NCBI GenBank assembly: GCA_963576565.1
Contig: OY755047.1
Span: 3,213,501-3,277,500 of the forward strand
Direction: 5' to 3'
Length of the DNA: 64,000 bases
Origin: Aspidapion aeneum
Taxonomy: Eukaryota; Arthropoda; Insecta; Coleoptera; Brentidae
This document shows positions 11,839 through 57,677 of this stretch, piece after piece. Each line of letters starts with the position of its first letter. The first letter of the stretch is position 1. The position numbers were made by a program, and so were the translations under genes. The notes below the pieces were generated by a model. The model saw only the letters and a list, made by a program, of their open reading frames with translations, had not been told where the DNA came from and made no database searches.

Positions 11839-12797
11839 CCCAGCAAACATGGTTTACAAAAAAAGTACTTTTTAAGTACTGGCTTTCACTGCTGCCCATA
11901 ACGGCAAAGTACTAAGTCGAAAGTACTTAATTCCTATTAATTTGGAACAACGGCCTGCATCAGGCTACCAAGTATATATTTTAGTACAAAAAACACTGTA
12001 CTTTTCAAGTAATGCATTTTTTTAAACTTCTTTGTACACAAAAGCATGTACTTTTAAAGCAATGTATTGTAACTACTTTTATTGTAAATATTGTAAGGAC
12101 ATTAGGTCACTCACCTCTCATATTTACGGAAGGAAAATATTTGATCATTATAAAAGGATCTTTAATATTTTCCTTTTCATATCAGATGATGATATATCCA
12201 AGGATTATGGAATATTTCACATCAATTTAAAAATAAATAAAATCATTTACATTCTTAAACTTGACATTCCTTCGTGTACCTGTAAAATGTTGACTAGTGT
12301 TTGCCATCTAGTGGCAGGGACGGCAAACATCAACTTCTCAGTTTTTTTTGTAAATATTTTATTTTCACAGTAAAATATTTAATATTTTTGTACTTAAATA
12401 AAGTGCTTTAAAAGCAACTATTTAAAAATACTTTTAAATATTTTTTTACTGTTATAATAATTTTGCAGTAAAACTTTTAAACTTTTAATAATCAATTAAA
12501 TGTACTTTAAGAGTCCCTTCTTCAAAATGATATTAAAATGTTTTATTGTGAATATTTTATTTTCACAGTAAAATATTTAATTGTTTTGCTGCACTTGGCA
12601 TTCTTCAAAAATAAAGTATAACTTTTCGTTGTATTAAAAATAAAGTACTAAAATGATGCATTTTTGCACTTTTAAATAATATGCAAATCAGACAATACAA
12701 AAATAATAAAAATAATGCACATCGTTGCCGATGCCAGCTGTTGCCAGCAGTTAAAGTACAATATTAGTAAAGTACCAGCAGGTCGATATTTGCTGGG
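11839..12797. mobile_element. Repeat family F (TIR CCCAGCAAA), uninterrupted copy
   Basis: Starts CCCAGCAAACATGG and ends ATATTTGCTGGG, 959 bp. It is rich in AAAGTAC/GTACTTT words and contains no convincing gene. A second copy spans 53897-57425 and is split by the Crypton-like insertion. The CAGTAAAATATTTAAT of this copy at about 12368-12383 is the empty target. Superfamily not assigned and no clear target duplication. Confidence 0.7.
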
Positions 12798-53610: not shown

Positions 53611-54439
53611 TATTCACTAAGGATAGAAGCGGCAACACGTAGGAAGGGCAACGAATCAGCCACACCGCTGAAAAACGGGTGAAATTGAAATCTTGTCCCG
53701 CGCGGTGCTGCCGGCTTGTAACTATTTACGCTAAAAAAGTTTACCCAGTTAACCACAGACTAAAAAAAAGAACTAGACATGTCGTAAGGAAAGATTTAAC
53801 TTTTTTTTTAATAAATCAATTAAAAATACTGGTTGTTGTCTAGTTTAGGGAGGGCACTGCCCCGAACCCCCCGCGCCCCCCCACGCTACGCCGCTGTTTG
53901 GAACAACGGCCTGCATCAGGCCAGCATGTATATATTTTAGTACAAAACACACTGTACTTTTAAAGTAATGCATTCTTTTAACTTCTTTGTACACAAAAGC
54001 ATGTACTTTTCAAGCAATGAGTTTTCTTCGTATTTTTAGTAAATACAAAAAAACTGAATTTTTATACATTTTTTAAAAAAAACCTGTACTTTTAAAGCAT
54101 TGTATTTTATTAATTTTTTTAGTAGTAGAAAGAAATTACTTTTATTGTAAATATTGTAAGTACATTACGTCACTCACATCTCATATTTACAAAAAGAAAT
54201 ATTAATTGATCATTATATAATTATTATATAAGATCTTTAATATTTTCCTTTTCATATCAGATGAGAATATTTCCAAAGATCATGGAACATTCCACATCAA
54301 TTTAAAAATAAATAAAATCATTCACATTCTTAAGCTTGACATTCCTTAGTGTACCAGTAAAATGTAGACTAGTGTTTACCATCTAGTGGCAAGGACGGTA
54401 AATATTTTATTTTCACAGTAATAGGTATTTACGTTACTA

Positions 54440-54541
54440 GACCGGAAATAAGGACTTTACAGGTCGACACAGGAAATTTACAGGGCGAGCCGCAGGCGAG
54501 ACCTGTAAACCTGCGGAGACCTGTAAAGTCAGTTTCCGGTC
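54440..54541. promoter_or_regulatory. Left-end inverted array of the Crypton-like element
   Basis: GACCGGAAA, GGACTTTACAGGTC at 54440-54465 is inverted as GACCTGTAAAGTC, TTTCCGGTC at 54518-54541. Between lie two more TTTACAGG/CCTGTAAA words (54477, 54502) and the pair CCGCAGG/CCTGCGG. It looks like a recombinase-binding or core-site array; function inferred. Confidence 0.45.
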
Positions 54542-54767
54542 GTGTATCGTACGTATATTTTTTTTTAACCGACATAATGAAGCACAGCTGTCTGTCTTAC
54601 TCAAAAGCTAGAGTAAGTATATGTTTGACTACTTATATTTAAACAATATTTATGCTACAATTAGGAACAATTCTTATACGCAACTACCTATATAACTATA
54701 GTAACCATTTTATATGTAAGTTACCTATATGTACCTAATATAAAATTCAAACAATTTTAATGCATCA

Positions 54768-56620
54768 TTACTTTTTCTCTTGAGTATAAATATTAAAAAT
54801 GCAGTTATGCACATTTTGGATATTTATATTTGCAGCCGAAGTATTTTCAATTTTTGGTGAATTTCTCTGCTGTATATTTATTGTTTCTGAAATGTTTGAC
54901 AACATATTATTTTGAGCATCAGACACATTAGATGTAGTAAAATCTCTGGTTGAACTTCCATTGCTGGCTGCTACTGGGAAGCTCCCGCCTGCACCTGCTC
55001 CAATTTTTTTAGCATTATCAACTTTTTGTCTCAGTGAGTGCTCAATATATCCTTCAGCAACAGAGTTTGAATGCCAGCCGCCCAAATTTTTAAGGTTTAA
55101 TATGTCTCCACCGCCTTCTATTAGGAGTGTGGCAGCGGTGCGCCTGAATGTGTGTCCGGTGAATTCTTGTGGATTTTTAAGCTGTAGAAATTTGGCGATT
55201 TTGGCAGGTGCCCCTCCTACGCCATGAAGACCTACTGGCTGCTTTCTACATTTTCCTTGAGAGTAAAATAAAAAGAATCTTTCATGCGGAACATTTGGGG
55301 GCCTTAGATTTTTGTATTTTTTAAATAACTTCAAATTTCTTTCACCAAGAATTACGAAAGTTCTTGAAACATTTGTTTTAGTGTTTGGTATATTGACTAT
55401 TATCATGTCTTCTTTCTCAGTGACGTCTTTTAGGGTTAATTTAGTAATTTCTTCCCTCCTCATTGCTCCCGAAATGGCCATGATCGTTACAACCTAAAAT
55501 CAAAAAGTAAATTTAAAATTTTTGCTAACTTTACAATTTGTGAACAGTCCCATATGCAACCGATCCGTAATAAAAACTGGTATTTTTCCTCGTCTTGTTC
55601 TTTTCACTAGCCGCAGTCGAGCGTTGCCGGATTTTATTATTTTTATCATTAAGAATGCTAAGTTATTAAACAATCGGATACCTAGTACCACAGCCTACCT
55701 AGGTAGGCTGTGCTAGTACTAACCTAGATAGTTTTAAAAATACTTTTTCCACTATTATTTAAGTAATTAGTTAAAGTATACATTTTTTATATTATTTTTT
55801 GATAAAAATAAAGATGGTAAAACAAAAAAATCTGTGTTGTATGTTTTTTTTTGTAATTTAAATGGCAAAATTTGTATGAATCTTTTGTTTGTAATAAATA
55901 ATAGTTGTAATTGAATTCCAATTTGAGTTTTTTATTTGGTTCCAAAGAATCTATATAAAACAAATTGGCATCATTGCTTAGCTTGGTAGTCCTTGTGTTA
56001 TGTTATGATTATTTTAGTTAGGTTATTGAATGAAAATTAATAAATAGAATTGTTTTTTGTTTTTACAGAAAAAATTGTTAATTGAAGCTAATAAAATTTT
56101 AAAATTTGGTTAAAAGTTACAGTGCAGTTGTTGGGATTGAAACACACGTTTTTATAACAAAAATAGCAAGGAGAATAATTAGGTTTGTTTGTATTTTACT
56201 TACTTTGAGCATTAAAAATTCCTCATCCCTTGCTTCTTCCAAAAATTTATTAATTTCTTCTCCACTGAAAACTCTGGCCTTTTTAGGCTTATATCCTGCA
56301 GACTTTTTCTTTAAAAATGCAATTAGCTTGTAGTAGCGACTAATATCAATATTTCTCCTTAATGATAAGCAAGTTTTTATTGTTGAAAATAAACTCCATA
56401 AACTATTGGACTTCAATGTGGCTGATTTTTCGGCAAAATATGCCACTAGGACATTTTCATCAATTGATTTAACTTTGTTTGTGTGACACCAATTAAGGAA
56501 TACATCATAATTTCTAGTATATCTCTCTTTGGATTTTTCTGGTAGCAAGTCGAAAGTTACCTTTGATGCTGCTTCAATTATTTCTTCCGGATTTAATTCT
56601 TCATTCATGTCCAAGTCCAT
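54768..56620 (-). CDS. Tyrosine recombinase (Crypton-type), two exons, 380 residues
   Basis: Exon 1 is 56620-56204 (139 codons) and ends CTCAAA before GTAAGT. Exon 2 is 55493-54768 and begins after ATTTTAG. The join is in phase 0. Residues 1-115 form an alpha-helical N-terminal DNA-binding (SAM-like) region (LPEKSKERYTRNYDVFLNWC, LVAYFAEKSATLKSNSLWSL). The catalytic domain contains MAISGAMRREEITKLTLKDV with the first Arg, GHTFRRTAATLLIEGGG with H-x-x-R, NLGGWHSNSVAEGYIEHS with the W/H position and the Tyr nucleophile. So R, H-x-x-R, W and Y are all present. The last 65 residues are low-complexity, Asn/Ser-rich. No disabling change is seen. It would cut and rejoin DNA through a 3'-phosphotyrosine. 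An ancient host gene is the alternative, but the insertion boundaries favour an element. Confidence 0.75.
55689..55712. repeat. 24-bp perfect palindrome in the recombinase intron
   Basis: CACAGCCTACCT and its exact complement AGGTAGGCTGTG meet without spacer, inside the intron 55494-56203. Confidence 0.85.
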
Positions 56621-56776
56621 AATTTACTTATTATTTTTTTAAATATCTCTTTTTAAACACAAGTTTTTTATTTAAAAGGCAGCCATATTGATTTATTTTA
56701 AATGTCAAAGCTGTCAAAACAAAACAATTTTTATAAGCTGTCATCACAAAGTCATGGCTAATTTGACTGAAATAGG

Positions 56777-56837
56777 GACCGGAAAGAGAACAAGAGACCG
56801 GAAAATTAAAAATAAAGATCACTTTGGAGACCGGAAA
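56777..56837. promoter_or_regulatory. Right-end GACCGGAAA direct repeats of the Crypton-like element
   Basis: Three copies at 56777-56785, 56796-56804 and 56829-56837, followed by a hairpin ACTTTCTGTAC / GTACAGAAAGT at 56870-56899 and a degenerate inverted copy TTTTCTGGTC near 56906. The same 9-mer occurs at the left end (54440) and, inverted, at 54533. Confidence 0.5.
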
Positions 56838-57677
56838 GAATCTGAACTAAACCCGCACTGTAAAATGAAACTTTCTGTACAAAAAAATGTACAGAAAGTG
56901 TATGTTTTCTGGTCGGTTGAAAAAAAAATATTTAATATTATTGTACTAAAAATAAAGTGCTTTAGAAGCAACTGTTTAAAAATACTTTTAAAATGTTTTT
57001 TCACTGTTATGTTAATTTTGCAGTAAAATTTTTAAACTTTTAATAATAAATTAAATGTACTTTAAGAGTAACTTCTTCAAAATGTTATTAAAATGTTTTT
57101 TTTTTAAGTATTTTATTTTCAAAGTAAAATCTTTAATTGTCTTGTACTAAAATAAAGTGCTTTAAAAGCAACTGCGTAAATATACTTTTAAAGTGTTTTT
57201 ATGCCATAACCCTGGCTGCACTTGTCATTCTTTAAAGAGAAAGTATAACTTTTCGTTGTATTAAAAATAAAGAACTAAAATGTTGCGTTTTTTGTACTTT
57301 TAAACATAATGCAAATTAGACAATAAAAAAATAATAAAAATAATGCATATCGTTGCCGATGCCAGTAGTTGCTAGCAGTTAAAGTACAATATTAGTAAAG
57401 TACCAGCAGGTGAATATTTGCTGGGTACACAGAGATAAAAATGTTATAGAAAGTCCATAAACTGTTTTTGCCGTGACAGTTTATTTTTTTACCTTACCAA
57501 AGTCCATAAAAGCAAACTTTTATTCGAACTTTTGGCATGAGTTCAAGAAAAGCACTGTCCGCTTGGATTTACGGATTTTTTGCACTTAATTCGACAAGTT
57601 TTCCGACCACGTGACATCATAATTTAAACTATACAGCCGAACCACATGAACAAAAGCCAACCACAATGATAGAAATA

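Follow-up and report, generated by a model that had tools for sequence, protein, structure and literature searches.

A 2,505-bp segment in the genome of the beetle Aspidapion aeneum is almost certainly a Crypton-type tyrosine recombinase (YR) transposon. It lies at positions 54422-56926 (no strand assigned) of the window, our name for the whole 64,000-nucleotide stretch that was analysed (contig OY755047.1 of assembly GCA_963576565.1, positions 3,213,501 to 3,277,500), where an earlier note made from the sequence had pointed to such an element. The identification is supported by a Pfam match of the encoded protein, by about 150 dispersed copies and by a readable empty site. As the best overall explanation, to which we give a probability of roughly three in four, we propose a recently amplified, autonomous CryptonI-like transposon, whose recombinase would join the two ends of the element and recombine the resulting junction with a dyad-symmetric genomic site. 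To our knowledge, the family is new as a family. With ~150 young, mostly intact copies, its edges, targets, empty sites and exchange point can be placed almost to the base, and animal Crypton insertion becomes testable with a known enzyme, donor junction and target.

Copies, edges and empty sites

Searching the assembly with the 180-bp left end, we found 40 perfect copies among the best 40 of 1,134 candidates. All 30 loci that were fetched first hold the element, with 99.2-100% identity over ~1.68 kb each; one of them (L030) has a small internal deletion in it. With the protein encoded by exon 2 of the recombinase gene, at least 108 genomic places were found (the best 108 of 2,744 candidates), each with an identity of 95-100%. 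Whole-genome counts allowing up to two mismatches came to 517 left ends, which include older relatives, 152 right ends and 151 occurrences of a 26-base tag from the open reading frame (ORF); reversed-pattern controls gave zero for each of the three. From the ORF-tag and right-end counts we therefore estimate ~150 young ORF-bearing copies, plus many more left ends. The earlier note would have seen a host gene or a fossil in a locus whose edges no second copy shared; such copies exist in number, and the mobile element stands.

We read 21 copies in full: that of the window and L039-L058, which were picked as the best left-end matches and are thus biased to young copies. Between pairs of them the divergence averages 0.28% (range 0-0.76%). 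All 21 keep their splice sites and 18 the full ORF, so that the earlier note, which called the window copy possibly intact, understated the case in thinking such a copy uncommon. Over 2,507 bp no difference separates the window copy from L039, and neither has private variants; variants in the set are mostly private, with a mean distance of 0.13% from the per-column majority. Recent movement of the element is strongly supported by comparison of the sequences.

The window itself holds the pre-insertion state, in the other copy of a repeat (repeat F) that surrounds the element. From 12368 onward the empty copy reads CACAGT-AAAA-TATTTAAT, and the filled one CACAGT-AATAGG...GGTTG-A9-TATTTAAT. This confirms the claim that a 2.5-kb segment is missing from the other repeat copy and leaves a readable empty site, which spans 12370-12383 (+) with its exchange point at 12373|12374. 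In the filled copy the left exchange point falls at 54421|54422 and the right one at 56926|56927, and the edges are common to other copies; the first element base is identical in all young ones. Because AA is common to target and element, each edge is placed to within 1-2 nt. Of the edges first proposed, 54421 and 56922, the left one proved correct to about one base and the right one lies about four bases short.

Two further empty sites were read. L059, the third copy of a dispersed repeat that is filled in L048 and L053, has A4 where the filled copies have A9; in the tandem repeat L082, by inspection, the run is A3 when empty and A8 when filled. The A-run thus differs by five in all three cases, and other target bases are neither gained nor lost. 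Judged from these three sites, insertion is conservative, with no target duplication beyond the common AA. The difference of five together with the AA core assigns seven A's to the element: its right terminus, GGTTGAAAAAAA, lies at 56915-56926 (+) and the rest of the A-run belongs to the target, as empty sites and right ends indicate.

In L048 and L053 the element occupies the same base of the dispersed repeat. The two elements differ at 4 of 2,510 sites and the right flanks at 35 of 930 (identity given as 95.6%), and the left flanks are 88.5% identical over 1,272 bp. Since the flanks are more diverged than the elements, these would be two separate insertion events at one base, the alternative being that gene conversion has made the elements alike. 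A second recurrent target may be represented by L077 and L127, whose flanks, compared by eye, come from a single repeat family and are interrupted by the element at corresponding bases.

Homologues annotated as single uncharacterised genes in several insects would suit a host gene, be it a domesticated or a fossil Crypton. At this locus the idea is refuted by the ~150 near-identical copies, which are dispersed, have edges of their own and lie in different flanks, and by the intact empty site; we leave it a negligible chance. Hardly more credible is passive spread, inside another repeat or by segmental duplication, in place of the element's own recombinase. Some left ends do point that way: among 20 loci chosen because an exact left end but no right end was listed for them, seven (L155-157, L166, L168-170) are identical 651-bp pieces of another repeat with an older Crypton left end, and L167 shares its first 333 bp with these. 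Young full-length copies, however, differ in their flanks, which all join the element at the same base, and L048 and L053 are separate insertion events at one site.

Among the other left-only loci, L171 shares the flank of the 651-bp pieces (by eye), L172 is a young copy, and most are older, diverged Crypton left ends. We considered left-only copies as proof of one-ended transposition and rejected them, as they are mostly repeat pieces or older diverged ends. The repeat that carries it in those seven loci is itself very young, the loci being identical over 651 bp. Two of the older left ends, in L164 (~200 bp) and L173 (~400 bp), belong to what look like short non-autonomous derivatives with related left and right ends. 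Finally, at C1:145204600-145208500 (L151, L150 and L152) ~132 bp of the Crypton left end form the centre of an inverted duplication, with arms of at least 1.9 kb each and 99.5% identity. Its form would suit a strand that folded back on itself at the hairpin of this end, or it may be an assembly artefact.

The recombinase gene and the subterminal repeats

The gene lies on the minus strand. Exon 1 (56204-56620) has its start codon at 56620 and a splice donor intact in all 21 copies; the predicted 710-nt intron (55494-56203) runs from a GTAAGT donor that begins at 56203 to a TTTTAG acceptor that ends at 55494, and homologous proteins align unbroken over the junction. Exon 2 (54768-55493, stop included) encodes the catalytic domain, with R151, K178, H253, R256, W279 and Y288, and the C-terminal tail. 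The earlier note had read two exons joined in phase, with these splice sites, 380 residues and the recombinase residues R, H-x-x-R, W/H and Tyr. All of this holds: the exons join in phase 0 to give 380 residues without internal stop, and an alignment of 18 proteins shows no variation at R151, H253, R256 and W279 and almost none at K178 and Y288. These six residues we take to have the catalytic roles familiar from the tyrosine-recombinase literature.

Profile and sequence searches likewise returned a tyrosine recombinase. Residues 118-291 match the Pfam Phage_integrase domain (PF00589, E 2.3e-17), and XerA in the PDB (5hxy) was matched by sequence at E 2e-6. The NCBIfam XerA-type model matches all 18 aligned proteins; ours reaches E 8.8e-14, with a score of 51.7 bits, far under the equivalog cut-off of 220 bits. 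In a predicted model of exon 2, of moderate confidence (predicted local distance difference test, pLDDT, 70.7; predicted template modelling score, pTM, 0.42), the fold resembles XerA (E 2e-5), XerH and Cre in the PDB, which we count as supporting evidence. The two recombinase exons are the only ORFs of at least 120 residues in 54422-56926, and no ORF of this size encodes a reverse transcriptase, a DDE transposase or another replication protein, shorter ORFs not having been searched.

A protein search gave 38 relatives at E <= 1e-3, and a profile search that scored the best 7,996 candidates gave 81 at E <= 1e-10; their identity to this protein is mostly 35-53%. Those named by organism are, with the exception of P0021, all from insects: beetles (Zophobas, Diabrotica, Leptinotarsa, Photinus, Pyrocoelia, Brassicogethes, Onthophagus, Ignelater, Aquatica, Molorchus and Exocentrus), Hymenoptera (Vollenhovia, Leptopilina, Cotesia, Chelonus and Eretmocerus), as well as Planococcus and Chrysoperla. 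Many other relatives are unnamed environmental sequences. The exception, P0021, is closely related; its record belongs to a bacterial metagenome-assembled genome (Candidatus Acidiferrales), and it is possibly insect DNA in the bin. From the sequence, too, a beetle is the probable host: a reverse-transcriptase ORF of the window has named matches at E <= 1e-60 in Coccinella, Sitophilus, Cylas, Diorhabda and Harmonia only. In viral contigs, none of 13 pattern matches was confirmed as a relative.

Behind a variable linker, at residues ~363-376 (54771-54821, minus strand), the protein has a C-terminal motif like xIxNxxNCTFNINI. A loose pattern of it occurs in the last 45 residues of 21 of the 38 relatives, and several others are partial. 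It could perhaps form a strand contacting other recombinase subunits.

Close to its ends the element carries six copies of GACCRGAAA, each no more than ~150 bp from an end, the outer ones pointing inward and the inner ones outward. By motif scan, GACCGGAAA stands at 54440-54448 (+, outer left), 54533-54541 (-, inner left) and 56777-56785, 56796-56804 and 56829-56837 (all +, inner right); the outer right copy at 56906-56914 (-) reads GACCAGAAA. A first-order model of the element expects 0.03 matches, with a maximum of 1 in 1,000 draws. Outside the element the degenerate motif is matched once in the window, and 75,662 bases of flanks hold four exact GACCGGAAA. The motif is also similar to an ETS-type promoter site, so it may serve transcription.

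The two left copies of the motif form the base of a 102-nt hairpin (54440-54541, no strand assigned), the inner one being its other arm. As DNA it folds with z of -9.6 on the plus and -10.0 on the minus strand, and none of 200 shuffles was as stable on the plus strand. The right end folds more weakly (z -3.75), its hairpin at 56870-56899 (no strand assigned) having a 12-bp stem and a 6-nt loop. The left end of L155, at 88% identity, keeps the left hairpin (z -9.75), whose structure is at most a candidate for selection. At the very ends AA is the only repeat; besides it come the six subterminal motifs and the left hairpin.

Target site and one-sided exchange

We built a target profile from 28 sites with both ends read, setting the exchange after position +2 and excluding L053 as a repeat of L048. 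The profile is dyad-symmetric, with its centre 5.5 bp to the right of the exchange. Position -2 (A7 G16 T5) mirrors +12 (A7 C16 T5), -1 (A14 G3 T11) mirrors +11 (A15 C2 T11), and A-rich positions +1 to +4 face T-rich +8 to +10.

As a held-out test we took 40 further copies, picked by their ORF and not by their ends, and scored 37 sites. The left arm learned on the 28 sites, when reverse-complemented, fits best at +8..+12 with a score of 0.96; the next best is -0.94 at +7, and 0 of 2,000 shuffles reached the observed value. Of the held-out left ends, 22 of 39 have G at -2 (P 3e-8), and 30 of 38 held-out sites have T at +9 (P 8e-9). Taking 65 sites together, G stands at -2 in 36, AA at +1,+2 in 64 and A at +3 in 62; TTWC starts at +9 in 16 of them (0.8 expected), at +10 in six and at +8 in two. 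The target is very probably dyad-symmetric, approximately GWAA-N6(7)-TTWC, with a symmetry that we judge to be real but loose. At the window copy its left half, GTAA (positions -2,-1,+1,+2), lies at 54418-54421 (+), as placed by the target logo and the empty site; the remainder of the split target, its own overlap and right half-site, follows the element at 56927-56936 (+), according to the repeat F comparison and the target profile. In the open literature, as covered by titles and the openings of abstracts, we found no reported target site or exchange point for an animal Crypton; subscription journals and Repbase lie outside this scope.

At the left end the element overlap TAGGTAT and then the right-hand half-site TTAC occupy 54422-54432 (+). 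All 39 readable left ends of the 40 ORF-selected copies have TAGGTATTTACG, the element overlap being kept. Right ends could be read in 38 of these 40 copies and at 29 of 31 earlier sites. In each of the 67 a run of seven or more A's leads into target-like sequence, and the reciprocal product, with the element overlap at the right end, was seen in none. This sets a 95% upper bound of 4.4% on the reciprocal fraction, against the half expected from random heteroduplex resolution. In two left ends position +1 is T, so that the exchange must lie to its right. Genome-wide, GGTCGGTTG-A7-TAGG has one exact place, where the right end runs on as GAATTTACC; with a normal left end, we rejected it as a reciprocal product and read it as a target happening to begin with TAGG. 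No tandem or circle copy was found in the assembly with the exact junction pattern.

Two insertions, L162 and L172, were found head to head in the left ends of other Crypton copies, among 109 flanks scanned (some sites fetched twice). As target they used the left site of another copy in reverse complement, and here the exchange follows GTAA, 7 bp off the usual position. Either half-site therefore seems usable, though each event shows one-sided exchange.

We now propose a pathway for the element. The spliced 380-residue recombinase would join both ends into a junction GGTTGAAAAAAA-TAGGTAT-TTACG, presumably on a circular intermediate. Written as AAAA-TAGGTAT-TTAC, this predicted junction has a layout like that of the target, with an overlap of 6-7. 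It would recombine with a genomic site close to GWAA-N6(7)-TTWC, the target bases remaining unduplicated. The GACCRGAAA repeats and the hairpins are putative accessory recombinase sites. Because the element overlap is always on the left and the target overlap always on the right, our preferred reading, held tentatively and at slightly under even odds, is a fixed exchange of a single strand pair, the other strand being resolved by replication or host nucleases. More speculative is its fuller form, in which a fixed one-strand exchange would operate at excision as well as integration, between a symmetric hairpin-flanked junction and a symmetric site, with the second strand completed via replication.

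Ordinary two-strand YR recombination over a 6-7 bp overlap is a rival that we find unlikely; here the mismatch would always be repaired to the same strand, so that a single product survives. Symmetric half-sites 6-7 bp apart are a standard YR layout (6-8 bp according to PMC3212892), and same-strand repair at both junctions yields the products observed. Replication ahead of repair, however, would leave reciprocal copies, which are absent from the 67 right ends within the bound given above.

The chances are poorer for a true overlap of AA at +1,+2 only (2-3 bp), with the symmetric arms as binding sites and not cleavage boundaries. Such an overlap accords with AA in 64 of 65 sites and with an exchange that maps to +1..+3, the two left ends with T at +1 shifting it rightward. 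L162 and L172, on the other hand, show the mirror position 7 bp away as an exchange point, and we know of no YR with so short an overlap.

Several observations weigh against our explanation as a whole or against one-strand exchange within it. An AA-only overlap or one-directional mismatch repair predicts identical junctions. The 31 left flanks from the left-end search are biased to AATAGG, which makes the 40 ORF-selected copies the only end-unbiased set. Of the two half-sites the right one is the less well conserved (exact TTWC at +9 in 16 of 65 sites, against exact GWAA in 31), and the right terminus of the element (GAAAAA) is an imperfect mirror of the target arm. In other older copies the left hairpin is weak (z -3.9 to +0.6); covariation comes down to one pair with two-sided change among ten left ends. 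Three of the 21 fully read copies are frameshifted (L056, L047 and L040), L040 also being without a right end. Exonic changes among the 21, 24 nonsynonymous and 11 synonymous with no stops against a random ratio of 3.76, give no clear selection signal on the ORF.

If one-strand exchange coupled to replication is correct, insect Cryptons would be copy-making (replicative) elements. This mode would account for the burst to ~150 near-identical autonomous copies, and it would explain why terminal repeats went unfound by earlier workers.

Comparison with known systems

Cryptons make up the YR class among the DNA transposons of animals, and the CryptonI group was defined from insects (Kojima and Jurka 2011, PMC3212892). 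That paper reports that terminal repeats of any kind were not found in animal Cryptons, with 50 copies of CryptonI-1_RPro compared; Crypton copy number is given as low in most hosts, and the circle model is offered by analogy. In the papers considered here, excision and integration of animal Cryptons are argued by analogy with bacterial elements. Going by the published description and by its insect relatives, our element appears closest to CryptonI. In both, the YR is the sole gene, without an added C-terminal Pfam domain, relatives are found in insects, short non-autonomous derivatives occur and long terminal inverted repeats are absent. Our element differs in its ~150 young autonomous copies, as opposed to low copy number in most hosts, and in its subterminal GACCRGAAA repeats and hairpin, dyad-symmetric target and mapped exchange point.

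The fungal CryptonF elements described in PMC3212892 are also YR transposons with conservative insertion. Their ends, however, are 4-6 bp direct repeats, where ours share AA at most, and their protein has a GCR1_C domain, which a Pfam scan did not find in our protein. The YR retrotransposons DIRS and Ngaro are set apart by a reverse transcriptase and an RNase H carried within the element, both of which are absent between 54422 and 56926. With Xer- and Cre-type recombinases the element shares the catalytic domain, by sequence (5hxy) and predicted fold; at ~20% identity, it is not a resolution or dif system.

Conjugative transposons of the Tn916/Tn1549 type (PMC10214605, PMC5871717) likewise insert by a YR via a circular junction, into loosely conserved AT-rich sites and with mismatched overlaps. 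When Tn916 excises, its spacers are heteroduplex and its coupling sequences vary, whereas the overlap of our element is constant; conjugation genes, too, set these transposons apart from it. For studies of site-specific integration, a eukaryotic YR with a tolerance for loosely conserved 14-bp sites would be of use.

The strand-biased circularizing elements (SEs) of bacteria (PMC9345347, PMC10214605) resemble our element in their YR, in a ~6-bp spacer within a symmetric site and in one-strand exchange. SEs have two YRs and two helper proteins, Tfp and Srap, between 13-19 bp inverted repeats, in contrast to a single YR here. They also take six donor bases to the right end of the new site; in our element the right-end bases equal the empty site in all three cases, the constant element overlap being on the left while the target overlap stays on the right. 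In integron cassettes and bacterial SEs the second strand is left to replication, as the one-strand replicative reading would have it for this insect element.

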